DNA of 41,715 nucleotides, taken from assembly GCA_024711125.1 (NCBI GenBank), contig JANJTM010000035.1, positions 1-41,715 on the forward strand, in the 5' to 3' direction. This stretch comes from Rhodothermales bacterium (GTDB lineage Bacteria; Bacteroidota; Rhodothermia; Rhodothermales; UBA10348). Within the stretch, counting starts at the first letter, position 1. Every line of letters begins with the position of its first letter. Under the pieces are notes generated by a model. That model had not been told where the DNA came from, made no database searches, and saw only the letters and a program-made list of their open reading frames with translations. A program made the position numbers and the translations under genes. Of this stretch, positions 15,139 through 41,715 are shown in pieces.

Positions 15139-15176
15139 GCCGCGTCGGCGCTCCGGGTGGACGTCCGACCCGGCAC

Positions 15177-15384
15177 GTCCTGCCTGCAGGGTAGGACCGA
15201 ATCGGAATCGTCCTCCGGGACAAGCTCCGAACTTCCATTCGGGGGCCGAATCGAAGCAGAACGTCCTTCGAACGGACGCCGAACTTCCATTTGGTGCCTG
15301 AATCGAAGCAGAAGGTCCTTCGAACGGACGCCGAACTTCCATTTGGGGCCTGAATCGAACTGGTGGGTATTTGACCAGGGCGTG
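15177..15384. repeat. 52-bp tandem repeat, subfamily A (three clear copies plus one diverged)
   Basis: Clear copies begin at 15229, 15281 and 15333, exactly 52 bp apart, each opening with GAACTTCCATT. A diverged copy precedes them at 15177. Each unit has two foldbacks. The first is CTTC-x-ATT(C) around a G-rich loop with GAAT-x-GAAG (15232-15256 in the first clear copy). The second is CGTCC/GGACG around TTCGAAC (15262-15278). In the copy at 15333 the second foldback sequence is replaced by CTGGT/ACCAG (15360-15364 with 15374-15378), and pairing is kept. The period is not a multiple of three, so these are not protein repeats in a single frame. Confidence 0.9.
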
Positions 15385-15482
15385 CTCACGCTTGGCCCGG
15401 ATCGGAACTCTACGGTCCGGTCGGACCCATGCAGGGGAAACCGACCCAGTCATCGACCACGACGGTCGCCGGCGGGGCAACA

Positions 15483-15638
15483 GTGCACTTTGGCCCCGGA
15501 AGTGCACAAAACGGCCCTTCAATCGCGCGCATTTGTGCACTTTGGCCCCGGAAGCGCACAAAACGGCCCTTCAAACGGGTGCAGTTGTGCACTTTGGCCC
15601 CGGAAGTGCACAAGACCGCCCTTCAAGCGGGTGCGGAA
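15483..15638. repeat. 52-bp tandem repeat, subfamily B (three copies)
   Basis: Copies begin at 15483, 15535 and 15587, exactly 52 bp apart. Each starts GTGCACTT, has the 9-nt loop TGGCCCCGG, and closes with AAGTGCAC (AAGCGCAC in the middle copy). In the third copy two more base pairs extend the stem outward. The second half is a foldback around CCCTTCAA. Its flanks change from CGG/CGC-like to ACCGCC and GCGGG in the third copy, while pairing persists. The backbone CCTTCRAACGG is shared with subfamily A although the first stem is unrelated, so A and B look like homologous units with exchanged stem sequences. Confidence 0.92.
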
Positions 15639-15757
15639 GCGAGAGAACGGCTCGGCCAGCGCCCGGCCCACCTCCCGCACCGCGCATATTCAGCGACCCG
15701 CGTATCAAATGGCCACGTCACTGCCGTAAGGAGTCGCTCGTGAAGCGTGAACACACC

Positions 15758-16381
15758 CTAGGCCGGCCATGCCACCGCGAGCGCGCATTCGTCGCTGACG
15801 TCGAATGCGACCTGCCACGATTCCCCGTCGTCGGCCCGCACCCGGGCGGTGCCGGCTGGGTCGAAGTGCGCGATGCGCAGTGATTTCGGAGAGTGCCTGA
15901 GGCCCGTGCGACGGCCCTTTAGCACCGACTCCTTGATCGACCAGAGGAGCGCGATGCGGCGATCGACGGGACCGGGCACCGTGTCGGGCAGCGCGGCTTC
16001 ATCCGGCCGCAGCATGAACCGGTACAGGCTCACCGATCGCGGCTTGATGCGCTCCAGATCCACGGCGACCCGATGATCGCCCATGACGGCGACGACGTCC
16101 AGTGCCGAGTGGGAGATCGAGACGTGGAGCCCGGTGCCCGGTACGGCAAGCGAGCCGTCCTCCTCCACGCGAACCTCCACCGCGCCTGCGGAGCATCCCA
16201 CGCGTTCGGCCACGAGGGTTCGGGCGGCAAGCCGCCCGACGGCGAAGGTGGCGCGGCGGTCGTCGTGCCGGAACGAAGCCATGCGCTCGGCCTCTTCCGC
16301 CGACAGCACGGACGCCGCGGCTCTGCGCGTGGCGGCGTCGGCGTGCAGGCGCAGCAGGGCAATCGATGGCGGAAGCGTCAC
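15758..16381 (-). CDS. 4'-phosphopantetheinyl transferase (Sfp-type)
   Basis: This enzyme of about 207 residues moves phosphopantetheine from CoA onto a serine of carrier proteins. Signature motifs are LHVSISHS (85-92), VAVDLERIK (105-113, with the Mg ligands Asp108 and Glu110) and WSIKESVLK (147-155, with Glu151 and Lys155). The N-terminal part [14 protein letters not shown] fits the family. The start is taken as GTG at 16381. Longer in-frame extensions run through the sodA terminator hairpin and into the sodA coding region, and the family N-terminus needs only about 100 residues before SHS. No carrier-protein synthase lies nearby, so the target is unknown. The gene ends at the hairpin array. 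Confidence 0.88.
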
Positions 16382-40485: not shown

Positions 40486-40842
40486 TTGCCGGAGTTCCTC
40501 TACAACGACAAGCTCTACTACAACCCGGTGGAGTTCGCGATGGACCGCATCGGCGGCACCTGGAAGATGCCGATCCTCTGGAGGCTGCGATCGCGCGTGA
40601 TGCGGTACGGCGAGCTGAAGAAGGACCTCGGCCGCATCACCCACAAGATGCTCTCCACCCAGCTCAAGCAGCTCGAGGCCGAGGGATTCATCCACCGGGA
40701 GGCCTACCCGGTCATTCCGCCCAAGGTCGAGTACTCGCTGACCGACCGCGGCCGTCGCGCCATCGAGATCATCGAGGGTCTGCGGACGTACGGCCTCGAG
40801 CTGATGGCCGAATTCGGGGTCGGGGAGGAGGGGCGGAGGTGA
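40486..40842 (+). CDS. HxlR-family winged helix regulator lacking cysteine
   Basis: This 118-residue protein has the HxlR/MarR-like fold. NPVEFAMDRIGGTWKMPILWRL (13-34) is the family opening, followed by RYGELKKDLGRITHKMLSTQ (40-59), the recognition-helix region. VEYSLTDRGR forms the wing. The start is TTG at 40486, supported by AAGGAGAG seven bases upstream and by the family N-terminus. Many relatives (YodB, HypR, QorR) sense quinones or disulfide stress through a conserved N-terminal Cys that precedes Pro-Val. Here that position is Asn13, and the whole protein has no Cys, so sensing must work differently. The likely target is the divergent DJ-1 operon. Confidence 0.93.
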   Translation: MPEFLYNDKLYYNPVEFAMDRIGGTWKMPILWRLRSRVMRYGELKKDLGRITHKMLSTQLKQLEAEGFIHREAYPVIPPKVEYSLTDRGRRAIEIIEGLRTYGLELMAEFGVGEEGRR

Positions 40843-40884
40843 GCGTCGGCCTGGTGGGGCGCCAATTCCCGCTTTCGGCACGAC

Positions 40885-41091
40885 GAAGTGGAAAATCGCC
40901 GCAGATTCCACGTCGGAAGCCGCTCTTCGAGGCTGCGAAGTGTAAAACAGGGCCAAATTCCACTTCCGGTGCCTGTTTTGGGGTCTCCGAAGTGTAATTC
41001 GGGGCTGAATTCCACTTCCGCGCGCGAAAAATGGCCTCGGAAGTGGAATATCGCCTCAGTTTTCCACTTCGGGGGCTGTCCTTCGGTGACT
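40885..41091. repeat. 52-bp hairpin tandem repeat, locus 2 (four copies)
   Basis: Units start at 40885, 40937, 40989 and 41040 (spacing 52, 52, 51), each with GAAGTGKAA. In each, an inverted repeat closes with TTCCACTTC or a close variant. In the third unit the stem (40989-41018) is 12 bp with one mismatch. In the fourth it is a perfect 9 bp (41040-41048 with 41062-41070). The second half of each unit is a weaker, variable foldback. The array fills the gap between the stops of the HxlR gene (plus) and the BsuPI-like gene (minus). The motif CGGAAGTG is shared with the repeats at 15.5 kb. Confidence 0.9.
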
Positions 41092-41110
41092 TCCGGCCCC
41101 GCCGCCGCCG

Positions 41111-41715
41111 TCACCCCCAGATTGTCACGGTCATCGTGGAGTCGAACGAGGCCAGTGGCAGGTTGACCCCCGCCCGGACGAGGAGCTCCCACCGGCAACA
41201 CGGTAGGAAAGTGAACCCGAAGTCGGCGATGGCCACGGTGCGGCGATAGTTCACCGAATCGCCCGGGGCGATCGATACGCTGGGGCCCAGGCAGTCGTCT
41301 TGGTAGCCAAGCGCGACTCCGCTCGTGCATTTCCACGGGTCCGCGGGCGCGGAGGCGTACATCTGGCCGAACTGGGCCCAGAAGCGAAACGCCTGTTCCG
41401 ACCCGAAATAGAGGGTACGCGTCGAATCGGTCGGGTTGGAGAGGTTCAGGAATACGGTCAGCGAATCGCCCGATCGGTAGACCTGCCGATCGGTGCGGAA
41501 GGCGTACGTGACCCCTGCCCACGGGGCCAGGCGCTCCACCATGTCGTCGTACAGGCGATTGAACTCCTCGAAGAAGCGGACGCGGTTCACGATTGCGTCA
41601 GGCATGCGGTCCGTGGCCAGACCGCAGAGCAGTCTCAAGGAACCGGTCCGATACGGGGTGCGCCAGGCCAGTTCGTAGCGGTCGGCGTCGGCGCATCCCG
41701 GCTCCCGCTCGCCTT
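41111..41715 (-). CDS. BsuPI-like domain protein, C-terminal part (5' end outside window)
   Basis: The frame stays open to the window edge, so the true start is beyond 41715; a TTG at 41638 is only an internal codon. About 200 residues are visible. After an N-terminal helical part (IVNRVRFFEEFNRLYDDMVE), the sequence YAFRTDRQVYRSGDSLTVFL, LNLSNPTDSTRTLYFGSEQA and APGDSVNYRRTV resembles BsuPI-type immunoglobulin-like domains. That family includes a Bacillus intracellular protease inhibitor. Several Cys residues (CTSG, DDC, PCCRW) suggest an exported protein with disulfides. Function is unknown. It is convergent to the HxlR gene, with the repeat array between them. Confidence 0.65.
   Translation of the reverse strand, partial: GEREPGCADADRYELAWRTPYRTGSLRLLCGLATDRMPDAIVNRVRFFEEFNRLYDDMVERLAPWAGVTYAFRTDRQVYRSGDSLTVFLNLSNPTDSTRTLYFGSEQAFRFWAQFGQMYASAPADPWKCTSGVALGYQDDCLGPSVSIAPGDSVNYRRTVAIADFGFTFLPCCRWELLVRAGVNLPLASFDSTMTVTIWG

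Follow-up and report, generated by a model that had tools for sequence, protein, structure and literature searches.

Dispersed intergenic arrays of inverted boxes with a 51–52 bp period in a Rhodothermales bacterium

A short repeat array in the 41,715-nucleotide stretch of Rhodothermales DNA analysed here (the window, taken at its full length) belongs to a dispersed family of intergenic inverted-box arrays, and we put at about even the chance that these arrays are BOX/REP-like selfish intergenic repeats whose boxes act as helix-phased, putative duplex-DNA recognition sites for a protein reader. The focal array would then be one instance of a non-autonomous repeat dispersed between genes, with a unit made of a 9-bp box present twice, inverted and two helical turns apart, that repeats each 51–52 bp (about five turns). 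The boxes would be read as duplex DNA by protein binding side by side along one helix face, the candidate reader being either the mobilising or recombination protein of the element or a nucleoid protein exploited by it. Arrays would grow and shrink through unit duplication, some would travel within a TIR MITE whose ends often fall on TAG stops, and convergent gaps would be tolerated landing places, not a functional target.

The core of the focal array (type A, Table 1) consists of eight copies of one box in alternating orientation. GAAGTGKAA boxes start on the forward strand at 40885, 40937, 40989, and 41040, and the inverted boxes (TTMCACTTC) at 40906 (which reads TTCCACGTC, one mismatch), 40958, 41010, and 41062, giving the pattern GAAGTGKAA-N12/13-TTMCACTTC in four units. 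These positions bear out the four inverted-repeat units around GAAGTGKAA, with start-to-start spacing of 52, 52, and 51 bp, described in an earlier reading of the sequence (the original prediction). The extent given there, 40885–41091, runs past the core, which stops at 41070, and takes in degenerate flank. The sequence GAAGTGNAA occurs eight times in the window, seven of them within the focal array, against 0.38 expected from shuffles. The array does lie, as described, between two convergent stop codons, in a 268-bp gap that places it 42 bp past the stop of the HxlR-family gene and 40 bp short of the stop of the convergent gene. No TIRs above shuffles were found around the focal array or the other standalone arrays.

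Table 1 Arrays, units, and neighbouring features in the window
Feature	Positions	Strand	Description
Type A (focal) array	40885–41070	.	four inverted box pairs, eight boxes, 21–22 and 30–31 bp apart
Unit 1	40885–40914	.	GAAGTGGAA-N12-TTCCACGTC, one mismatch
Unit 2	40937–40966	.	GAAGTGTAA-N12-TTCCACTTC, position 7 of arms non-complementary
Unit 3	40989–41018	.	GAAGTGTAA-N12-TTCCACTTC, position 7 of arms non-complementary
Unit 4	41040–41070	.	GAAGTGGAA-N13-TTCCACTTC
HxlR-family regulator gene	40486–40842	+	Pfam PF01638, E=6.7e-27
Convergent gene	41111–41638	-	uncharacterised, no Pfam family
Type B array	15483–15634	.	period 52, TTGTGCACT-N11-AGTGCACAA
Type C array	15227–15359	.	period 52, CGAACTTCCAT-N11-ATCGAAG
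TIR element enclosing type B array	15377–15759	.	AGGGCGTGCTCACGCTT...AAGCGTGAACACACCCT; right end overlaps TAG stop at 15758–15760

Type A units are dispersed over many contigs of the window's own genome (G000; 3.79 Mb, 99.3% complete). Judged by its NADH dehydrogenase subunit L, the organism sits close to Rhodothermales/Bacteroidota MAGs. Exact two-box units number 48 there, with 0 for a reversed-pattern control, and a search that allowed as many as three mismatches at a constant 12-bp gap recovered 57 units, again against a control of 0. The units group into ~27 loci of 2–8 boxes, every one of them intergenic. Two contigs (C27 and C56) end inside or beside arrays, where unit numbers are probably under-assembled. 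In a relative from another genus of the family (G009), the core GTGKAAT-N9-12-ATTMCAC gave 64 matches versus 0 for the control, and GTGKAA recurs with its G/T choice included. A further 146 sampled genomes contained 0–1 core matches in nearly all cases, so that only two genomes are array-heavy. One stray match was seen in G090. The exact three-box pattern had no match in the named genome collection or in viral contigs, and literature searches on intergenic palindromic arrays of such build gave nothing matching.

The 51–52 bp period is shared by boxes of different sequence. Tandem Repeats Finder detected 25 strong tandem arrays in the sequence sampled from the own genome and assigned this period to 22 of them, a tally that is partly selected because the sampled loci are mostly centred on type A cores. 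These arrays comprise box families A–D, where B is TTGTGCACT/AGTGCACAA, C is CGAACTTCCAT, and D is TTTGYGAC, and at least three further box sequences in the own genome share the period of type A. Families recovered independently of type A selection are B and C in the window, D at locus L023, and C at L037, along with L086 and the unlike boxes at L181 and L192 in G009. In that relative, 8 of 17 strong arrays fall at 51–52 bp, and at least three box types are represented among them (L052, L086, L181, L190, and L192). The ~2.2 Mb sampled from named genomes and further relatives contained no 51–52 bp arrays. Array spacing seems to matter more than box sequence. Among individual loci, L086 (1556–1885) carries a 51-bp unit repeated 6.5 times, with the box ATGGAACCT/AGGTTGCAT, 27 bp from the end of a neighbouring gene, and L023 (3051–3157) carries the fourth box family (TTTGYGAC...) at period 52 with the linker CCCC-TTTTT-GGGG.

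Box distances are tightly held although loop and linker sequences differ. Within the 64 units compared in the own genome, the two boxes lie 21 bp apart in 51 units and 22 bp apart in 13, and across the linker the distance is 30 bp (n = 37) or 31 bp (n = 10). The GTG.AA core is (nearly) invariant over 128 boxes while the loops diverge; the short gap inside the unit has a G/C-rich centre, and the centre of the linker is usually a run of A/T about five bases long. The DNA helix makes one turn every 10.4–10.5 bp or so. By this arithmetic, distances of 21–22 and 30–31 bp approximate two and three turns, and therefore all boxes would face the same way, on one side of the helix. Homogenisation through unit duplication could also keep spacing and box sequence constant. 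The one-face phasing, the period kept across unrelated boxes, and the dispersal across many contigs would also suit a selected chromosome-architecture or supercoiling site, bound by gyrase or a nucleoid protein by analogy with E. coli BIME-2. We regard such a role as unlikely, since the distribution is patchy, heavy in two genomes and nearly absent from the others sampled, an unusual pattern for a housekeeping site.

Across box families, we tentatively propose an array superfamily defined by geometry and not by sequence, in which boxes alternate at two and three turns, repeat every five, and may be read by filament-like or cooperative DNA-binding proteins, with box–protein pairs evolving separately in each genome. 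If spacing is what is selected, the arrays would point to a DNA-binding system not yet described, in a lineage that has been little studied, and would provide a natural test of whether repeat elements evolve to fit the helical geometry of a protein.

Gene orientation around type A arrays was evaluated over ~0.88 Mb of the genome with a small codon-based gene finder trained on recognisable window genes, and expectations were derived from intergenic base pairs. The 24 type A gaps comprise 9 convergent, 10 tandem, and 5 divergent gaps, corresponding to an excess of convergent gaps (2.8 expected, p=0.001) and a divergent count that does not differ significantly from expectation (8.4 expected, p=0.20). 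Six of the loci are copies of a single TIR cassette, and after their removal 4 convergent gaps were retained versus 2.1 expected (p=0.16). Tail-to-tail placement, which the original prediction had put forward for these arrays, was therefore rejected as a general rule, given the tandem and divergent gaps and the weakness of the convergent excess outside the cassettes. Of the two outcomes named there as refuting it, a spread without regard to gene orientation is mostly what was observed, and copies within genes were absent. Pneumococcal parasitic intergenic repeats and IS elements share a convergent bias (PMC3049150), and most REPs have been reported from gaps between convergent or unidirectional genes (PMC3733652).

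An element acting at the RNA level, with tandem 3′-end hairpins as bidirectional terminators or as protection for mRNA ends, is improbable. Its intergenic location and the convergent excess before removal of the cassette copies would be consistent with such a role, as would strong folding of the arrays as RNA (z ~ -4.5 on either strand); this folding is a by-product expected of any inverted-repeat array. Only position 7 of the stem (G or T) is variable enough for a covariation test. In the own genome this position is G/G in 44 units, mismatched in 17, and T/T in 3, so that 47 of 64 pair versus 45.1 expected if the arms were independent; no covariation was detected at this position, and pairing over the whole stem (94.7% of cells) matches that of shuffled arms (94.5%). 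Mismatches are the majority in G009 (18 of 28 units, with 10 G/G and 0 T/T). An RNA hairpin as the conserved feature was rejected because covariation support is absent. No intrinsic terminator (GC stem directly followed by a U tract) was found at 40780–41200, the arrays have no Rfam match, and 5 of the 24 lie between divergent starts. The hairpin and bidirectional-termination role that had been suggested is thus not supported, given a stem lacking covariation and the lack of a terminator-like site. In an informal comparison by eye, the direction of the linker T/A tract, considered as a terminator tail, followed the direction of tandem genes in ~6 of 10 cases, with no clear agreement. Together, the absent covariation and the absent terminator site favour recognition of the duplex by a putative protein.

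The gap at 15139–15757 contains two distinct 52-bp arrays, of types B and C. The motif CGGAAGTG, described as common to the focal and 15.5 kb arrays, was confirmed in two units of the latter, the third, middle unit reading CGGAAGCG. Type B arrays, including the one in this gap, are enclosed by TIRs of the same class as those of six type A arrays (L018, L025, L027, L028, L030, and L036), which sit inside copies of a single cassette with 16–17 bp TIRs (AGGGCGTGTTCACRCTC); the elements around type B arrays span 266–620 bp, and cassette flanks are YA/TR, sometimes CTAG. The cassette copies hold fragments of varying size that match the 3′ region of the window hxlR gene. At L018 (9750–10134), L027 (9736–10213), and L030 (9642–10261), the array is accompanied by a truncated copy of the hxlR gene end, apparently a gene fragment captured by a MITE. 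Because the window copy encodes a full HxlR domain (Pfam), we infer that the TIR element captured the gene end plus array from the window hxlR locus or its sister, and the cassettes would illustrate how such an element can capture and spread both. By eye, the right part of four cassettes (L027, L028, L030, and L036) looks like the 3′ half of a tRNA (GGTTCGAGTCCGCCCCC), but ARAGORN called no tRNA there. No autonomous partner for the cassettes was found.

Exact coincidence with a TAG stop at one end or more was observed for 7 of 12 examined elements and 8 of 24 ends, where TAG accounts for 94 of 664 stops. In the window element and at L018, L025, L028, L030, L072, and L078, the terminal AG of the TIR element completes the TAG stop of the neighbouring gene. 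Some arrays thus lie exactly between stop codons because TIR elements end at TAG stops, and part of the convergent-gene pattern follows from the same habit with no terminator function needed. Passive debris, left by neutral tandem duplication of old transposon ends that nothing now binds, would account for the arrays inside TIR elements and for array flanks that are unrelated to one another outside the cassettes, but is a poor candidate given the conservation of GTG.AA among diverging loops and the period common to unrelated box families.

Compared with known systems, likeness to IS630/Tc1-like MITEs, which use CTAG or TA targets, is limited to the TIRs and flanks of the cassettes, the focal array having no TIR. 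Mycobacterial MIRU-type VNTRs likewise consist of tandem repeats between genes, with units of comparable length, but are unrelated in sequence, and we know of no inverted-box phasing in them. The BOX elements of Streptococcus pneumoniae, in which tandem boxB modules lie between TIR-bearing end sequences, are over-represented between convergent genes and judged parasitic (PMC3049150). Our arrays resemble them in being non-coding, intergenic, and composite, with tandem inner modules that vary in number (2–8 boxes per array), but the sequences are unrelated, and several box families here follow one geometry. TIR end modules are present at the 15.5 kb array and the six type A cassettes, whereas most arrays, the focal and standalone ones included, have no recognisable ends or TIRs.

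REP/BIME elements are defined by a 20–40 bp palindrome with a GTAG or CGTC tag at one end, and CGTC REPs have been reported without a dedicated transposase (PMC3733652). The REP/BIME analogy drawn in the original prediction holds for habit: type A arrays form a multi-copy family of inverted repeats that avoids genes and is confined to the gaps between them, in the manner of REP/BIME or BOX elements, and share with the GTAG and CGTC superfamilies short inverted repeats that are dispersed, arrayed, and species-specific in sequence. It fails in that conserved stem pairing is lacking, no fixed GTAG or CGTC tag accompanies the type A boxes, whose flanking bases are variable and G/C-rich, and the RAYT (Y1) transposase (PF01797) has 0 matches in G000 and in G009 (98% complete), while it is found in the relatives G018, G001, and G006. 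By the criteria of tag and transposase the arrays are not REP/BIME; they are a variant of dispersed intergenic repeat arrays.
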